Part shown: positions 2,524 to 31,723 of the stretch, piece by piece
Numbering within the stretch: the first letter of the stretch is position 1
How the letters are laid out: every line of letters begins with the position of its first letter
NCBI GenBank assembly: GCA_902789265.1
Contig: CADANR010000040.1
Location: forward strand, 1-32,383
Reading direction: 5' to 3'
Source: an uncultured Lachnospiraceae bacterium
GTDB lineage: Bacteria; Bacillota; Clostridia; Lachnospirales; Lachnospiraceae
Length of the DNA stretch: 32,383 nucleotides
The notes under the pieces: generated by a model
What the model saw: only the letters and a program-made list of their open reading frames with translations
Told to the model about the DNA's origin: nothing
The model's database searches: none
Program-made: the position numbers and the translations under genes

Positions 2524-4293
2524 TTACATCAGTTCTTTTGCATAATTATAATAATCTTTGGCAAAGCGGTACTGTCTTAAGGAGTACTCTCCGAATTCCA
2601 CACCGTATTTCCTTTTGTATTCACACCAGTTCGACCAAAGGAGCCCGGATGCGGCCATATAGCAGTAAATTTTAGCCTTGGTCTCGTTATCACATTTTCC
2701 TTCAAAATAGATATCAATCAAATGATCCGTCTCTTCCTTAGTGTACATACTGTAAATACAGAACATTGCGATATCCACGTGTGGATCCTGCATTCCCGCA
2801 TACTCTACGTCGGTAAGCTGCAGTTTCTCTACACCGTCTTCATAATAGAATAAAAAGTTATCACAGTTTGCATCAATATGAGTTAAGCAACGTTTCGGTT
2901 TTAAGGAATCAATATATTCTTTTAATTCAAAAACATGCTCTTTTGTCTTTTGATAATCCCGGTATATGGAAGGACTTCCTTCCCAAAGGGATTCGTAGAA
3001 ATCAATTTCTCCGAAAATATTGAATTCGTGATCTACTTTCAAATTCATATTATGGAACTCATGAAGCTTCTTCATGCATCTTTTAAGATCCTCTTCATTC
3101 CTGTCGTCACAGCATCTTACATCGTTTAGAAAACGAGTGATTTTATAACCGGTCTCGGGATTCAAATATACCGGATCATCACAAATGCCGAGACCTTTGA
3201 TTGCGTTATATACGGCCGCTTCCTGCTTTCTGTCAATCAACCTCTCGGTTCCTTCTCCGGGAATACGCATAATGTATTTCTCCCCGTTTACCATAAAGAG
3301 GAAGGACCGGTTCGTCATGCCCTTTTTCAGGATTTCAATATTTTTAACATCTTCATTTCTGCATCCGAAAATCTTTGTAATTACCTCAATGGCATCGGAT
3401 TTCAGATGATCGGAATCCGCATCAAATTCGCGAAGCTGTTCATAGGTATTGATTTCTGTTACTTCATCTTCCTTTATGGTCTTGGCAAAAACAATCATTT
3501 TGTTTCCGACAATTAAGGCATCTTCCCAGAAGGAATCCGCATATTCATCGTTTTGATTCATTTCACCCAGTCTTTTGCTTAAGCATTCTGCTTCTTCTCC
3601 GACCAGATAACTTAAACCGACCATGGCATTTCCGTCTTCCTGCTCAGAAACGGAAATCAACTCATTTTTACGGTTCACACGAACGGAACTTTCCGCGTCC
3701 ATCCCCTCGGAAACCATGTACCAGCTGTATAATTCATGCTTTTTAAACGGATTATTTTCAAACCAGACGTCAGCAGGAACAACATAGGTGTTTGCTATAC
3801 TTTTGCTGACAAGACTTAAAGAAGAAAGATTGTTTTTTACGGTGTATTCATCATTTACGGCAAGTTTAACACCGAAATCATCAATTAAATATTCGAAAGA
3901 TTCTTTCATGAAGCCAACCACTACAGTAATATCCTTTATTCCTGCTTCATGAAGCTGTCGGATTAAACGTTCAATCATGCACTCCCCTTTAATGATAAGA
4001 AGTGCTTTCGGGGAGGATAAATTAATCGGAACCATTCTCATTCCGATTCCTGCTGCCAGAATGATTGCGTTGTGCGGTTTTCTCTCTTCCAGCAGTTCTT
4101 TGGCCGCTTTGGTCAATTTGTAGTTTTCATTAAGAAGATCTGCATCGGAGAGATTTTTTAAGGCTTTGTTCACAGTTCCGATGGAATAACCGGAATTCTC
4201 GCTTAAAGACCTCTGATTTATATATTCATTTTCTGCTAAGGAAAGTAAAATATCAGATTCCTGTTTTCCAATTTGCAGTTTGTTCATTTTCAC
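2524..4293 (-). CDS. Winged-helix / LicC-like nucleotidyltransferase / LicA-like choline kinase fusion
   Basis: This three-module protein is the first gene of the choline operon. Residues about 6-68 form a winged helix (NQRSLSENSGYSIGTVNKAL is a plausible recognition region). Residues about 75-290 are a LicC-like nucleotidyltransferase with LAAGIGMRMVP, SPKALL, VVGFMKESFEYL and FWEDAL. Residues about 300-589 are a choline/ethanolamine kinase domain with the phosphotransferase motif H-x-D-x-x-x-x-N at His472, Asp474 and Asn479 (THIDANCDN), then DVEYAG for metal binding. It probably phosphorylates choline and may also activate it. The DNA-binding module suggests that it senses pathway state and controls its own or other promoters. 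A GGAGG site sits directly against the first ATG (4299) but six bases from a GTG at 4293, so I chose GTG. Enzyme assignments are firm at family level; regulation is inference. Confidence 0.85.
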   Translation of the reverse strand: MKMNKLQIGKQESDILLSLAENEYINQRSLSENSGYSIGTVNKALKNLSDADLLNENYKLTKAAKELLEERKPHNAIILAAGIGMRMVPINLSSPKALLIIKGECMIERLIRQLHEAGIKDITVVVGFMKESFEYLIDDFGVKLAVNDEYTVKNNLSSLSLVSKSIANTYVVPADVWFENNPFKKHELYSWYMVSEGMDAESSVRVNRKNELISVSEQEDGNAMVGLSYLVGEEAECLSKRLGEMNQNDEYADSFWEDALIVGNKMIVFAKTIKEDEVTEINTYEQLREFDADSDHLKSDAIEVITKIFGCRNEDVKNIEILKKGMTNRSFLFMVNGEKYIMRIPGEGTERLIDRKQEAAVYNAIKGLGICDDPVYLNPETGYKITRFLNDVRCCDDRNEEDLKRCMKKLHEFHNMNLKVDHEFNIFGEIDFYESLWEGSPSIYRDYQKTKEHVFELKEYIDSLKPKRCLTHIDANCDNFLFYYEDGVEKLQLTDVEYAGMQDPHVDIAMFCIYSMYTKEETDHLIDIYFEGKCDNETKAKIYCYMAASGLLWSNWCEYKRKYGVEFGEYSLRQYRFAKDYYNYAKELM

Positions 4294-4299
4294 GAACAT

Positions 4300-4304: not shown

Positions 4305-4335
4305 ATAAATATTTTCATGAACATCTACAATTGGA

Positions 4336-4364
4336 ATAATAAAACACCTACAATATCTTGTCAA
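4336..4364 (-). promoter_or_regulatory. Sigma-A type promoter of the choline operon
   Basis: On the minus strand a perfect -35 box, TTGACA (4364-4359), is followed by 17 bases and then TATTAT (4341-4336). The expected transcript start is near 4329, about 36 bases before the GTG start codon. This is the best consensus promoter in the window. The palindromic site at 4349-4362 lies across its -35 box and spacer, a position usual for a repressor. Confidence 0.75.
4349..4362. promoter_or_regulatory. Palindromic operator-like site, copy at the choline promoter
   Basis: TACAATATCTTGTC differs at one end base from the 14-bp palindrome TACAATATCTTGTA found twice at 30481-30512. The core inverted repeat ACAA-N4-TTGT is intact. 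It overlaps the -35 hexamer and spacer of the choline operon promoter, so a bound protein would compete with RNA polymerase. It also overlaps the last codons of the YfhO-like remnant, so part of the identity could be chance. Confidence 0.5.
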
Positions 4365-4543
4365 GTGTTTTTTTGCATATACCACTATTTGAGAGTCTGC
4401 TTAATACAATTATCCCTGCATAAAGCAGTAAACCAAAAAGACCTAAGAACAATCCTTCTTTAAGATAGGGCGTCATATATCTGAAATAGACATTATGATT
4501 TCCAGGCGGCAATATAATAAAGAAGTGGACTTTTTTTTTCCAA

Positions 4544-4572
4544 TTGACTATACTTTTAGCAGATTCAATAAT
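4544..4572 (+). promoter_or_regulatory. Promoter of the plus-strand lipoprotein gene
   Basis: TTGACT (4544-4549), a 17-base spacer and AATAAT (4567-4572) form a good sigma-A-type promoter, ending about 35 bases before the ATG at 4608. An AGGAG site at 4597-4601 gives normal spacing to that ATG. Confidence 0.6.
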
Positions 4573-4607
4573 CAATCCGTTCCATACGGATATTACAGGA
4601 GAAAACC

Positions 4608-5714
4608 ATGAAAAAGAAAATACTCTCGTTGATGTCAGTATTGCTGATATCAACATTATTAATTCCTTCTTTAAGTGCTTGTAAGAACAATACAACGCCC
4701 CCGTCTTCGGTCACTCCGAGCGAACCGGCAGGACCGGCGTCGCCTGTCGGACCGGACAGTTCCGAGGTTGTCAGTGCGCAGGGGTATGATGCTCCCATCC
4801 TTTCAGATACAATAGAAATCGACGTGAATAAGAATTCTTCTTTCACTCCCGTTGATGTAAAAACACTTCCGGAAGGTCTCGGGAACTTTCTTGCAGGCAT
4901 GGCCTGGACCTGGGCAGAATACAATCCCCAGAACATAGACATCGTTAAAAACGGTGTGGCACTTATGTTGGGAGCTCCTTACGTTGTATGTGATTTTTCC
5001 CTTTACAGTGATTATATTGATGTTCCGGAATATGATAAATGCTACGATGACCCCTCATTCTGTAATTCGGACGGATATTTCGTTTATGATGAGGAAGGCG
5101 TTGACTGGATTCTTACAAATATCTATAACGTTCCTGATACGATTCTTTCCAAATTAAAGGATAATTCAGACAATCAGTTCCTGAAATACGAAAACAATCA
5201 ATATCTGGCAGCCGGTGCCGGAATCGGCGGTGGATTCTTCATTTATCCGATTTATGCCGAAAAAGACGGTGATGTCTATAACATAATTTACCAGGAAGAA
5301 AATGTTTACACTCCGGGAGAACGTATCCCGAGATTTGCTGTTATGGAATATAAAACTATCGACGGAAAAGGTTACTGGACCATCAAGAGAAACAGCACAT
5401 CACCGATTTTTGAGCCGGCAGAAGATGTGGATCCCTACAAAGAACTTGAGGTAGAAGGATTTACCGATGACGAACTCCGTAAAATGACAAATGATTATAT
5501 TGAAAGTAAAGAAGGCGTTCCTGCACCTGAAATTGATATCTTCCCTTCAGGAGACGGAACCGTATCCATTCATGTATACGAAGAGGTTGAAGAGGAAGAT
5601 GATAACGGCGAGAAGGTCAGCCACATCGCTACCTGGGCATGGTACACAATCGACCGTAAAACCGGAAAGGGAAACGATGATGTGACCGGCGAAGAAGTTG
5701 ATCTGACAAAGTAA
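4608..5714 (+). CDS. Secreted lipoprotein of unknown function
   Basis: The protein has 368 residues. It begins MKKKILSLMSVLLISTLLIP and continues to a lipobox, LSAC, with the modified cysteine at about residue 25, so it should be anchored to the outer face of the membrane. A Pro/Ser/Gly/Ala linker follows (SEPAGPASPVGPDSSE). The body, about residues 60-340, is acidic and rich in Tyr and Asp and contains paired motifs such as WTWAEYNPQN and ATWAWYTIDRKTGKG, but no catalytic motif I recognise. The gene has its own promoter and ribosome binding site, is the only confident plus-strand gene here, and ends in a strong terminator shared with the converging gene. Its position between the choline operon and the repeat proteins hints at a cell-surface role, but I assign no function. 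Confidence 0.85.
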   Translation: MKKKILSLMSVLLISTLLIPSLSACKNNTTPPSSVTPSEPAGPASPVGPDSSEVVSAQGYDAPILSDTIEIDVNKNSSFTPVDVKTLPEGLGNFLAGMAWTWAEYNPQNIDIVKNGVALMLGAPYVVCDFSLYSDYIDVPEYDKCYDDPSFCNSDGYFVYDEEGVDWILTNIYNVPDTILSKLKDNSDNQFLKYENNQYLAAGAGIGGGFFIYPIYAEKDGDVYNIIYQEENVYTPGERIPRFAVMEYKTIDGKGYWTIKRNSTSPIFEPAEDVDPYKELEVEGFTDDELRKMTNDYIESKEGVPAPEIDIFPSGDGTVSIHVYEEVEEEDDNGEKVSHIATWAWYTIDRKTGKGNDDVTGEEVDLTK

Positions 5715-5821: not shown

Positions 5822-8800
5822 TTAATACTTATAATAATCATATCCTGCATAATCATATTCCGGATCTGTCAGGTAATAAACTTTTCCGTTAATCCTAAAG
5901 ATACCGATTAACGCTTCACCATTTGCATTAAAGTACATCTGTTTTCCGTGAATGGTTCTGAATCCGGCCTTTCTCTCAACCGCACCGTCAGATCCGATAT
6001 AGTATATTTTCTCCGGCCAGGAGCTGGCATCAAGGAATACACAGTTTTTCACTAAAATACCATCCGAGTTAAATGCATATAATTTACCGGATACATTAAC
6101 AATTCCTGTCTGGGCTTTGCCGTTTACGAAGAAGTAATAATCATCACCAAGTTTCAGCCAGCCGTTTGCCTTATAAACTTCATTGCTTAAGGAACCATTC
6201 TTATTGAATTTATAAAGAACCCCGTCAATCAGCTCATATTCACTTCTGTTCTTGCTTCCGCTTCCGCTGTATGCATGATACAGTTTACCGTTTACGGTAA
6301 TCCATCCGGTATTCGCACTGTGATCTTCACCGAAATAATATCCATCCTTCCATCCGGTTAATGTAAGATCAGCCTTACCATTTGCTCCGAAGTAATACTG
6401 TTTTCCGTAATAGACATTGAATCCAATGCCGTTTTTCCCATCTCTTATAAATGTCCATTCGTTTCCAATCTTATACCAGGTATTGTTCGCTACGCCCGTT
6501 GCCAATGTCTTAATTAATACTCCGTTTTCATCGAACTGATACAGATTTCCGTTGATTACTGCAAGAGGACAAAAACAATTATTAAATCCGTCTTCATCTG
6601 CATAATACCATTTTCCGTTTATCTTAACCCATTCATTCTTGGCAATTTTGCCGTCGGACTTAATAACAATATTATAATAAATCGTGTTCTTAAGATACTT
6701 TCCGTCTGCTCCGACAAAATATCCGTCCGGAGTTACATCGTTCGTCATCATTCTGCCATTATCACCAATATAGTATTGTCCAACCCATCTGCCACGAACT
6801 TTTACTCCGTTTTCATAATAGTAATACTGACCTCCGGAAAGTACCCAGCCATTCTTTGCAGGATCCACTTTTACAGCATGTCCGGATGCATCATAGTAAA
6901 CACCGTTAAAGACATTGTCTGCAATCATTCTGCCCTCATAATCAAACGCATACTCATATCCTTTTATTTCTTCCGTTTCATCATATAATACTTCGCCTAA
7001 ATACTCTTCACTTTCATCCGGATATATATAGTACCAGTCATTTCCAAGTTTATGCCATCCGGATTCTGTTACCATTTTGCCGTTAGCTGCAAAAATTCTA
7101 TGGTCATAAACTCTGTCGGTAACCATGATTCCATTTGAATCAAAGTAGTACCATGCATCTTCTATCTCTACTAATTGTTCCCGCAGTAATTCTCCTCCGA
7201 GAACATAGTACCAAATACCGCTTTCAGGAGAATTCCAACCTTCCGAAGCTTCCATCCAGTAAGATCCGTCCGGCCTTAAGAGATAAAGTTTGTCATCGTA
7301 AAATACCGAACCTCTGAACATCCGACCGGTTTCATCAAAATAATACCATTTGTTATCAATCTTCAGTTCCCCTGTAGCCAGTGTTCCGTCTGCAGTAGCA
7401 TAGTATTTATTATCACCGTAACCTTTTGCCCAGCTTCCGCATGCCATGGAACCATCCCTATTAAAGAAATAGTATTCGCCTTCTTCAACTTCGTATGCTC
7501 CATCGCAAAGTGCAAAACCGTTACTTCCGATATAGAACCATTTGTTATCAACCTGAATCCATTCATTCTGAACAAGAGATCCGTCAACATAATAAACCGG
7601 ATCCAGGGAACTGTAATCGCTGACATAGAATAATCCATTCGGATTTTCTACTTTCTTGACTACTCCTGCGGTATCTGCTCTGAAAAGAACTCCCTCGCTA
7701 TCCACAATGTAGCAACTTCTGACCATGGAGGGATTTAACAGATACGTATTTCCCTTATAATCGAAGAAACCGCTCACTCTCGCACCGTCAGCGCCAAAGT
7801 AATACCAATCCGAACCGCTTACGGAAAACACGGATGAATAACTGCCCGAGCGAACCAGTGCCCACTCTTCTTCATAAAGACTTCCATCCGGTCTTGCACA
7901 ATAATAATTGCCGGTATATGTTTCATAGTCATAAATCTCAAACATGCAATCCTGATATAAAGCGCCGTCATAATTGAATCCATAAAGCTTTCCTTTTATT
8001 TCATAAACACAGTTTGTAAGCAAATTTCCATCAATGGCATAATACCATTCACCGTCAATTAAAGTCCATTGCTCATTTGCAACTGCAGTGGCAACACCTT
8101 TTCCGTCCGAAACATATAAAACATTATCTACAATCAGAGAAGCGTTTTCATATAACCCGCCATTATATCGGAACAGATATTTGACGCCTTTTAATTCCAA
8201 CATGGTATCACGCGGAGCTATTCCTCCTTCTCCGTAATAATACCATTCGCCATACTCATCCTGATACCATTCATTCACGCAGAGTACACCATTCGATTTA
8301 GCTCTTATAAATACCCAATCTTCTAACTCAGAATCATAGTAACTATATTCATCATCAAGATAAATCCTTCCGTCATATGAGAAATAATAATAGTTATTGT
8401 TGACTTTCTCTATGCAATTCTCATAAACCGAACCATCCGCTTTAACATAGTACCAGTCTGATCCGACTAAAGTCCAAGCGCCTTTTTTCAGCAGAAATGC
8501 ATGCCCTTCTTCATCAGAAACATATCTGTCACCATCAATAATTAAATGTGCATCTGTTGCAAGCATACCACCATCCCAAAAAAGATAATCTGTACCTTTA
8601 ATGGTTAAAACGCAATCTTCCGTATTGGCTCTTCCGCCTTCACCGAAGTAATACCATTCATTAATTTCATACTCTTCATCTTTGTATAAAACCCACTCTT
8701 TAACATATAAAGGACCATCGGGACGAGCACAATAACAAACACTATCTCCTATTTCCGGATCATAGAGAGAAAAGAATTCATCATCATACATGAATCCGTC

Positions 8801-28934: not shown

Positions 28935-30389
28935 TTACTTGGCCCCGCTTCCCTTAAAAACTACCATTATTGTTTTGAACAAAATCTTAACATCCATCAT
29001 TAAAGACCAGTCAGTAATATACTTCAAATCCAATTTAACCACTTCTTCAAAATCCGTAATATCACTTCTTCCGCTTACCTGCCACATACCTGTAATACCG
29101 GGTTTGGTTGCCAGTCTCGCACGATGATGCAACTGATATTTTTCCCATTCATCAACAGTCGGTGGTCTGGTTCCTACCAATGACATTTGTCCCAACAAAA
29201 CATTAAAAAATTGTGGAAATTCATCAATACTGTGCTTTCTCATGAACTGTCCGATTCCGGTCTTCTGTGTGCCGTCCGGGAGAATTTTATTTCCGATAAT
29301 ACGCGGATCGAAATCCATCTTGAACATCATGCCGTCCTGAATGTTGTTCTGGCTCATCAATTCCTTTTTCCGCTCCTCTGCGTCCTTATACATGGTACGG
29401 AATTTAATGATTTTAAATTTTTTTCCGTTCATTCCGATTCTTTCCTGGGTAAAGAAAATACCACCCGGAGAGGAAAACATGATAATCGGTCCGAATATAA
29501 TCGCTAAAAGGATGGTAAAAATACTGCCCACCAGTCCGCCGATAATATCCGTTACACGTTTTGTAAAAAACTGCCTTGTGGTAGCGTATCCGATACTCGT
29601 CGTAATAACGTACTGATCGGCAATTTCTTCCATAATCTGCGGTCTGTCATCGATGTGGGTCAGTTCCGCAAGAGAAAGATGCATCGTAACACCTGTTTCC
29701 GAAATCTGTTTTACCACATTAATGACATCCGGATTCGTCAGTTTGGAAACAACATAAACCTCATCCACCCAGCTTTTGCATATGTATTCGGGAGCTGCCT
29801 TGAATGAAGATACTACCGGAACCCCCAGAATCTCCGTTCCGACAGAGTTTTCATCATCAATCACAACAGCGCCGGTGATTTTATAGAATTCATAATTGTG
29901 CTGCTGAATGGAACGTATGGACTCTTCAATGTGTTCCATGGTAGAAACAATAATCAGGGAACGGTCTCCCTTCTTTTTCATCTTCCTGGAAATACGGAAT
30001 TTACGAAGGAGTCTTAAAGAATACGAAAGGAAAAGATGAATTAATCCGCAATATAACATTGTAATACGTGAAATCTGCTCGCCCTGTTTCGTAAAGTACA
30101 AATAGAAAATCGCCAGAAGAATTACGGTTACCGTGTGGCGGAATGCGTAGACCAGCTCCTTATAGTAGCCGCGCTTTAAAATATTCTTGAATGTTTCAAG
30201 AAAGTAGATAACACAGATATCGTCTATCAACAGAAACAACGCCATGTTCCGATAGGAATCGTTATACCACATATCCCATCTTCCATGACGCAAAAAGAAA
30301 GCCAGGACAAAAGACACCTGAATACAAATCAGTTCAATCAGGATAAAATCCCAGTGCTTTAACCAGCCTTTCGGTGTTTTCTGATACAT
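28935..30389 (-). CDS. Polyprenyl-phosphate sugar phosphotransferase that starts repeat-unit synthesis
   Basis: A 484-residue initiating transferase of the WbaP/CpsE family. Four N-terminal helices (about 10-130) and a CoA-binding-like region (about 140-255) precede one more membrane segment at about 280-305. The catalytic C-terminus carries FKIIKFRTMYKDAEERK, SIDEFPQFFNVLLGQMSLVG, TRPPTVDEW and KPGITGMWQVSGRS, all family signatures. It moves a hexose-1-phosphate from a UDP-sugar to undecaprenyl phosphate in the membrane. The ATG at 30389 has AAAGG seven bases upstream. It is the first gene of the leftward operon that runs at least to 19906, and the 212-base gap before it holds the palindromic sites. 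Confidence 0.9.
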   Translation of the reverse strand: MYQKTPKGWLKHWDFILIELICIQVSFVLAFFLRHGRWDMWYNDSYRNMALFLLIDDICVIYFLETFKNILKRGYYKELVYAFRHTVTVILLAIFYLYFTKQGEQISRITMLYCGLIHLFLSYSLRLLRKFRISRKMKKKGDRSLIIVSTMEHIEESIRSIQQHNYEFYKITGAVVIDDENSVGTEILGVPVVSSFKAAPEYICKSWVDEVYVVSKLTNPDVINVVKQISETGVTMHLSLAELTHIDDRPQIMEEIADQYVITTSIGYATTRQFFTKRVTDIIGGLVGSIFTILLAIIFGPIIMFSSPGGIFFTQERIGMNGKKFKIIKFRTMYKDAEERKKELMSQNNIQDGMMFKMDFDPRIIGNKILPDGTQKTGIGQFMRKHSIDEFPQFFNVLLGQMSLVGTRPPTVDEWEKYQLHHRARLATKPGITGMWQVSGRSDITDFEEVVKLDLKYITDWSLMMDVKILFKTIMVVFKGSGAK

Positions 30390-30414
30390 AAATAAACCTT
30401 TCTAAGATTCCAAA

Positions 30415-30437
30415 ATTATACAATCATTGTAATTATA
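30415..30437 (-). promoter_or_regulatory. Two candidate -10 boxes of the polysaccharide operon, without a good -35
   Basis: TATAAT occurs on the minus strand at 30437-30432 and again at 30420-30415. Neither has a recognisable -35 box at 17-18 bases (TTTATT and ATTTAG). A promoter of this kind often needs an activator. A small palindrome, GGGTATTTACCC (30461-30472), and the two operator-like sites lie just upstream. Confidence 0.45.
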
Positions 30438-30480
30438 CTAAATTACCAATCAAAAATAAAGGGTATTTACCCAGAAAACA

Positions 30481-30512
30481 TACAATATCTTGTATATTTA
30501 CAATATCTTGTA
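30481..30512. promoter_or_regulatory. Two tandem 14-bp palindromes upstream of the polysaccharide operon
   Basis: TACAATATCTTGTA occurs at 30481-30494 and again, identical, at 30499-30512, with centres 18 bp apart. Each is an inverted repeat TACAA-N4-TTGTA. A near-identical copy lies at the choline promoter (4349-4362). An inverted half site, CAAGATA, follows at 30519-30525. The sites are about 45-80 bp upstream of the likely -10 boxes, a position more often used by activators than by repressors. The binding protein is unknown. Confidence 0.6.
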
Positions 30513-30601
30513 TATTTTCAAGATAAACACCCCAATAAATGCCTCAATTAATACTACTTTAGTTATAATTGCAGAATATATAAACCAACTCTCTGTATAT
30601 G

Positions 30602-31723
30602 CTATTCTTCAACAGCTGTTTTAACCCAGTCTGCTTCCTCCGTTATGTCGGTTTCATTGAATAAATCTGCTTCTTCATTTAAGCCTTCTTCTTTGTTTTC
30701 TTGCTCTCTCCTTCCGGAAGATTTGCTATGATTTCTCAAGGATTTCTTTCTCAATACAGCAACAATTATTCCCAGAATAATTGCGATTAAAAGCCAGGCC
30801 TGGGAGATTACCATAAAGAGCGCCAGTGTTCCCTTCACATAAGCCACTATGAATTCCTTGAAATATACCGGCGTAATACTCAAACGATTGAAAAATCCGT
30901 TCAAATATACGATAAACGGTGCAAGGAAGGTCATTAAAAAACCACCACTGAATGCGTAAACAAGGTAACGAAGTCCCCTATGTGGAAGTCTGTGAACCTT
31001 CATGCAGAAGAATCCGTTCAAAACACCGAATAAAACAGAAATAATCAAAAGCAACGGGAAATAATTGGAATACTCATTTCCATACTTCACGATGTAGTCA
31101 AGGGCAGTAATTTTAATCCGCTTCCGGTAAATGTCCATAATATCATTTACGTAATCATCTACTGCGGATTTCATCGTTTCCACCGCTTCATTGTAAGCAT
31201 TTACACTCTCTTCATCCAGCTCCACTTCGGAGTCTGCAGAATTGACCGTTTCGGTCGGTGTTCCTTCTGCTTCCAGGAAAGCCATTACCTTTTCCCTTAA
31301 TACCTCTTCCTGTGAGGATGTATTAATGGTATACTGGCGAATCTTGAACGTACTGCTTATATAGTTTTCCAAATCGAGCCTTATCATGGCCTCGTTAAAT
31401 AATCCCTCTGTCACGGACGGATCGATTCCGGTCGGAATGGTATAATCCCATGCATCCGTCTCAACATCCTCTTTCACTCCGGTATAATAGGAGTCCGTGA
31501 TGTAGGACTTAAGGAAGGATTCCGAGAGTACAATTCTCACGATGCATACCGTAGAAAGAAAAAATAAGGATAATGCCACCATAAAGGAGAAAACACAGCC
31601 GAGAATCGTTCTTACAACTCTCTTGGAACCGCCTTTCTCCGTGCCTTTACGGCTTCTGTTCTGATTCATATTTTCATCCCGGTTCAAATTCTCAGGGGTT
31701 GTCGCTTGATTACTCATCTTCAT
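30602..31723 (-). CDS. Four-helix membrane protein of unknown function, coupled to the sortase gene
   Basis: A 373-residue protein. A basic, Asn-rich cytoplasmic start precedes helix 1 (about 38-62). An external domain of about 150 residues follows, mostly helical and acidic (EEVLREKVMAFLEAEG, VNAYNEAVETMKSAVDDYVN). Three further helices lie at about 215-325, and the last 45 residues are a highly charged cytoplasmic tail. I do not recognise the family. The ATG at 31723 overlaps the end of the sortase gene by 14 bp and has GGAGG four bases upstream; ATG at 31717 is an alternative. Such tight coupling suggests that it works with the sortase, for example as a partner that positions it or its substrate, but nothing in the sequence proves this. 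Confidence 0.75.
   Translation of the reverse strand: MKMSNQATTPENLNRDENMNQNRSRKGTEKGGSKRVVRTILGCVFSFMVALSLFFLSTVCIVRIVLSESFLKSYITDSYYTGVKEDVETDAWDYTIPTGIDPSVTEGLFNEAMIRLDLENYISSTFKIRQYTINTSSQEEVLREKVMAFLEAEGTPTETVNSADSEVELDEESVNAYNEAVETMKSAVDDYVNDIMDIYRKRIKITALDYIVKYGNEYSNYFPLLLIISVLFGVLNGFFCMKVHRLPHRGLRYLVYAFSGGFLMTFLAPFIVYLNGFFNRLSITPVYFKEFIVAYVKGTLALFMVISQAWLLIAIILGIIVAVLRKKSLRNHSKSSGRREQENKEEGLNEEADLFNETDITEEADWVKTAVEE

Follow-up and report, generated by a model that had tools for sequence, protein, structure and literature searches.

A rare palindrome upstream of a polysaccharide operon in an uncultured Lachnospiraceae bacterium resembles the NrdR boxes of nrdD promoters

The DNA analysed here, referred to as the window, is a stretch of 32,383 nucleotides from contig CADANR010000040.1 of an uncultured Lachnospiraceae bacterium (assembly GCA_902789265.1). 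It carries a polysaccharide operon, which opens with a sugar transferase gene, and a choline operon with a gene that fuses a winged helix to two enzyme domains. The exact 14-mer TACAATATCTTGTA, a palindrome, occurs at 30481-30494 and at 30499-30512, both times ahead of the polysaccharide operon, and a copy with one mismatch, TACAATATCTTGTC, lies at 4349-4362 in the choline -35 region. The features upstream of the polysaccharide operon are as follows.

28935-30389, minus strand: bacterial sugar transferase (PF02397), first gene of the polysaccharide operon
30432-30437, minus strand: polysaccharide promoter TATAAT, read by eye; the promoter scan gave no good -35 box
30481-30494, plus strand: NrdR-like box, proximal copy; exact 14-mer, matrix score 18.6, 43 bp before the TATAAT
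30499-30512, plus strand: NrdR-like box, distal copy; exact 14-mer, matrix score 16.5
30481-30516, plus strand: 18-bp direct repeat, two units
30499-30519, minus strand: 21-nt block GAAAATATACAAGATATTGTA, identical in genome G015 upstream of the matching operon

An 18-bp tandem repeat, TACAATATCTTGTATATT, contains one exact 14-mer in each of its two units. The palindrome is imperfect, with arms TACAA and TTGTA around a TATC centre, and across the pair the half-sites alternate every 9 bp (TACAA-4-TTGTA-4-TACAA-4-TTGTA). An earlier sequence-only reading had described two exact copies here, a one-mismatch copy over the choline -35 box and no others in the intergenic gaps, and all of this is borne out: the choline copy overlaps the -35 of a TTGACA-17-TATTAT promoter, and the window holds no further place at up to two mismatches. 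At up to three mismatches there are 11 window matches where 6.4 are expected. The same reading had placed the boxes upstream of a promoter lacking a -35 box, a fair description because the promoter scan gave only one weak 9/12 site, with 1.8 expected in shuffles.

Across the whole genome (2,567,539 bases in 220 contigs), a search proposed in that reading, the exact 14-mer occurs just at the two polysaccharide places. Seven further places differ from it by one base; five are intergenic (C17, C22, the choline promoter, C111 and C168) and two lie within open reading frames (C5 and C95). By script, the choline site also falls inside a doubtful 115-aa frame with a TTG start. The shorter core ACAANATNTTGT has 11 sites in the genome, against 5 for a reversed control: C17, C35, choline, the polysaccharide pair, C52, C87, C111, nrdD, C168 and C185. 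Apart from the choline site with its doubtful frame, all are outside open reading frames of at least 70 aa.

The closest match to this motif is the NrdR-type box of nrdD, which the earlier reading had left out of account. NrdR combines a zinc ribbon with an ATP cone and responds to dATP and ATP. The exact core ACAATATCTTGT occurs, on either strand, in the nrdD promoters of G004, G025, G010 and G019. The bacterium's own nrdD promoter carries the boxes CCACAACATCTTGTGT and TCATAATATCTTGTGT, 32 bp apart and just upstream of TTGACA, each one base off the window core. An ATP-cone search of 31 genus genomes led to 30 nrdD rows for scanning (one, G017b, is another ATP-cone gene), and in 23 of these the best box pair stands at 31-32 bp with both boxes scoring at least 0. 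The box matrix was built from 32 hand-picked nrdD boxes, some of them weak, and the scanned nrdD rows hold the same kind of boxes, so its scores lean toward nrdD boxes. On this matrix the polysaccharide boxes reach 18.6 and 16.5 and the choline copy 13.5, against a background in which 7 of 399,100 positions reach 12 and 3 reach 14. The window sites are palindromic boxes with the conserved C and G nine bases apart, the arrangement described for the NrdR box, in which conserved GC pairs matter (PMC9110341).

The genome itself encodes NrdR (TIGR00244, 199 bits against a cut-off of 124.65) and nrdD (NF006126, above cut-off); thus it has both the regulator and such boxes at an nrd gene. The same 16-mer stands upstream of nrdR in the family member G369, where NrdR was confirmed by TIGR00244, and no box was found within 840 bp upstream of the bacterium's own nrdR. 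The neighbours of the window sites are a sugar transferase and choline genes, not ribonucleotide reductase genes or nrdR. The window shares with ribonucleotide reductase promoters the core and the C and G nine bases apart, but its boxes are 18 bp apart instead of 31-32 bp and precede polysaccharide genes.

In spacing the window sites depart from known NrdR operators. The NrdR tetramer is described as suited to two boxes about three turns apart (PMC9110341), and the binding assays reported in PMC12051234 show strong binding of box pairs only when 14-17 or 24-27 bp lie between them, which places the boxes three or four helical turns from each other; within the 12-27 bp range assayed, binding at other spacers is weaker by about two orders of magnitude. 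At the polysaccharide operon the starts of the two boxes are offset by 18 bp, which leaves 2 bp between the 16-mers, a gap outside the range of that assay (PMC12051234). Because the window sites break the published pairing rule, we call them NrdR-like and not proven NrdR operators.

Elsewhere in the genome the motif does pair. The 8 remaining own-genome core sites, counted without those of nrdD and the polysaccharide operon, have better second boxes at 31-33 bp than shuffled flanks do (combined p 7e-8), while control distances of 21-23, 26-28, 36-38 and 41-43 bp give p 0.89, 0.98, 0.36 and 0.94. Three of these sites, C52, C87 and C168, have a common ACATATATTGAA partner; p is 2e-5 without the first two and 6e-4 when C168 is also removed. 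Taken singly, C22 gives p 0.002 and the G015 site 0.05, and a good partner at 31-33 bp is missing for the choline site (p 0.12) as well as for both polysaccharide boxes (p 0.10 and 0.17). For other genus sites the pairing is not significant (p 0.056; 19 sites from 20 self-chosen loci, most with a TATC-centred core, L317 being left out because its box is at a contig end). In its own genome the motif behaves like a paired NrdR-like box, but the window's sites stand without that pairing.

The same spacing is what speaks for another dimeric regulator with a TACAA half-site as the binder of the tandem pair, its likeness to the NrdR box being convergent: an 18-bp spacing misfits NrdR, and the half-sites alternate every 9 bp. 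Such a regulator would have to be reconciled with the motif's habit, elsewhere in the genome, of pairing at 31-33 bp in the manner of NrdR boxes, and no regulator gene was seen by eye beside the window sites, either among the window's reading frames or in the remaining 2.5 kb of the contig. We regard this explanation as somewhat unlikely. Sites of the WalR, CopY/BlaI, GntR and LytTR types presumably fit the palindrome poorly and were set aside.

Several paired or repeated sites lie elsewhere. At C22 (L091, about 7866-7914) the region between two divergent genes in a sugar/envelope cluster holds two NrdR-like boxes spaced by 32 bp; the box is kept in one of four orthologues (G025, but not G028, G018 or G015). 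The boxes at C52 (L268) and C87 (L269) lie in REP-like elements flanked by GGGACAGTCCC. In G027 (L312, position 1465) a box pair 31 bp apart precedes a recombinase-like gene (p 0.001), and G030 has a single strong box at the matching position.

We then turn to conservation at the polysaccharide operon, where the nearest named relatives are Lachnospiraceae MAGs, several of them rumen-derived by isolate name. In G015, a member of the same genus, the sugar transferase is 67 % identical and is preceded by a UDP-GlcNAc 2-epimerase gene (PF02350). The 14-mer stands upstream of this epimerase/transferase pair, as part of a 21-nt block that agrees at every base with the distal copy of the window, while the flanks are unlike. 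In G028 (transferase 71 %) a box, ACACAATATCTTGTGT, at -113 forms the tip of a strong terminator hairpin (-25.3, z -4.6) and therefore counts for less. Among 70 homologous loci from named genomes, with 192,614 bases of upstream DNA scanned and little or none at some loci, an upstream box with a score of at least 14 is confined to G028 and G015; a third, distant locus has one at 12.2. Control DNA from the same loci gave no boxes in gene bodies and two downstream, at 22.2 and 13.0, the former strong yet chance-like. Where identity is at least 60 % and upstream DNA is present, the box is found at two of four loci, the others being RUG781, where the gene is internal to an operon on a contig of 4.9 kb, and RGIG6068. 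Chance alone was dropped as an explanation here, given the 21-nt block common to G015. These results support the view that the repeat is not random: it is rare and mostly intergenic in its own genome, and conserved at the matching polysaccharide operon of G015. A conserved NrdR-like operator at this operon is, as judged from sequence, fairly well supported.

An alternative is that the element acts as RNA, forming a hairpin or terminator in the stretch between the polysaccharide operon and the gene before it. The minus strand at the polysaccharide site indeed folds to -17.1 kcal/mol (z -4.6), and by eye the exact 14-mer of G004 also sits in a hairpin tip. As with intrinsic terminators, there is an inverted repeat between two genes, and G028 has a terminator there; unlike them, the window lacks a G+C-rich stem and T run. 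Its stem is A-T only with no T run after it, and a scan of 30390-30610 for a G+C-containing stem followed by a T run found 0 terminators. The choline copy, whose position at a -35 box puts it before the start, forms a fold as well (-10.7, z -3.9). An RNA role thus appears quite improbable.

Beyond this operon the genus-wide case is weaker. Over 31 genus genomes ACAANATNTTGT occurs 169 times against 117 for the control (summed per-genome rows), and the case is weakened because this excess is modest, 12 of the 31 genomes show none, and some cores lie in coding DNA: many genomes have the core about 297 bases upstream of nrdD, which in G003 is, by translation, inside an open coding frame. The exact 14-mer occurs in 5 of the 31 genomes (control 0). 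Besides the window and G015, it lies, as judged by eye, in the G004 hairpin, at the start of a membrane-protein gene in G003 and upstream of a MurA-like gene in G012, and it therefore marks no consistent gene set. At up to three mismatches a genus search returns many unrelated places. The 16-mer is present in 139 of 397 family genomes, mostly in a multi-copy element of the G463/G326 type and otherwise scattered. In these two genomes (L173-L190) the element has GGGGCTGTCGCA-type ends, is often intergenic and holds the same palindrome inside. By eye no GGGGCTGTCGCA-type ends were seen beside the window sites, and a mobile-element copy was dropped as an explanation.

The choline side of the window carries the following features.

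2524-4299, minus strand: fusion gene of winged helix (HTH_24), NTP transferase and choline kinase
4289-4297, minus strand: GTTCGTGAA, element copy at the start of the choline fusion gene
4314-4322, minus strand: GTTCATGAA, upstream copy of the choline-promoter element
4336-4364, minus strand: choline operon promoter TTGACA-17-TATTAT
4349-4362, plus strand: one-mismatch 14-mer copy over the -35 region, of doubtful function; score 13.5, absent in G003

Among 30 same-genus genomes searched, only G003 has a full-length match to the fusion gene (71 %); three further relatives have none. The choline promoter of G003 has no box (best score 1.7), and across 12 relatives' choline loci (G003 and 11 more distant ones) no 14-mer within two mismatches was found near the start. 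Thus the conservation check in relatives split, with the polysaccharide site kept in G015 and the choline box absent in G003. What recurs instead is a TGTTCRY or TTCRYGAA-like element near the fusion gene start, in 12 of 13 loci including the window (L041 is the one without). Outside the window the element was noted at L027-L037 and L040; in five distant choline loci it takes the form of TGTTCAY and TGAAC half-sites with a spacing of 30-31 bp, and the first of these usually follows TATAAT directly. The window has GTTCRTGAA at positions 4289 and 4314, and the case for it rests on conservation because two matches are also reached by 19 of 100 shuffles.

These elements bear on the proposal that the fused winged-helix protein binds the palindrome. 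It is a poor candidate because choline promoters keep TTCRTGAA-like elements instead, and it was dropped as a binder of the 14-mer. TTCRTGAA, through which the fusion protein may regulate its own gene, is a likelier target of its winged-helix domain. A literature search on LicC and choline kinase found nothing.

More broadly, it had been proposed that a single regulator serves the two operons, as a repressor of choline uptake genes and an activator of polymer genes, and so balances choline against polymer. The two sites have 13 of 14 bases in common, and the choline copy overlaps the -35 box. On C168 (L090, 899-912), moreover, TACAACATCTTGTA stands in the spacer of what by eye is a TTGAAG-18-TATAAT promoter and precedes a gene with choline-binding-type repeats (family matches below cut-offs), and the other end of that contig shows an 89 % match to the start of the window, its choline-transporter end. 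However, neither the choline promoter of G003 nor any of the 11 more distant choline loci has the box, and the score of the window's choline copy is low against the background given above. The bases of this copy also code L-D-K-I-L-stop, the end of a possible YfhO C-terminal remnant (4348-4695, minus strand; E 0.042, below cut-off) that ends inside the choline promoter. The proposed balance is thus not supported. Shared control of choline and polymer is possible but unsupported; the C168 findings keep it alive at low odds, and a single regulator at both operons has, in our estimate, only a slim chance of being correct.

Our preferred, still tentative, reading is that the palindrome represents an NrdR-like box which serves as a genuine, conserved control site at the polysaccharide operon, with the bacterium's own NrdR as its likeliest binder. 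We infer that NrdR would bind boxes centred some 60 and 80 bp before a predicted start. It would perhaps activate the promoter lacking a good -35 box, as it is reported to do at Pseudomonas aeruginosa topA, which has a single NrdR box (PMC4409342). As in the window, the box there is unpaired and belongs to a gene that is not one of the nrd genes (PMC4409342); unlike topA with its single box, the window has two in tandem, and their putative target is polysaccharide synthesis. The tandem appears to derive from the single box seen in G015 by an 18-bp duplication, and the choline copy may be either a weak member of the same class or a coincidence.

NrdR has been described as a repressor specific to ribonucleotide reductase (PMC9110341). 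The literature searched, by titles and abstract openings, yielded no link between NrdR and control of polysaccharide genes. A wider reading, which we consider rather unlikely, extends the control exerted by NrdR or a close variant in this rumen Lachnospiraceae genus from ribonucleotide reductase to envelope genes, namely those for polysaccharide, for a choline-binding-type protein and perhaps for choline supply, with one target having a non-canonical 18-bp tandem. The question of how the choline operon is controlled shifts to another element, TTCRTGAA. If the polysaccharide site is bound, the spacing rule gains an exception and a nucleotide sensor reaches cell-surface synthesis. Were the wider reading true, cell-surface synthesis would follow the dATP/ATP balance, and thus DNA replication.
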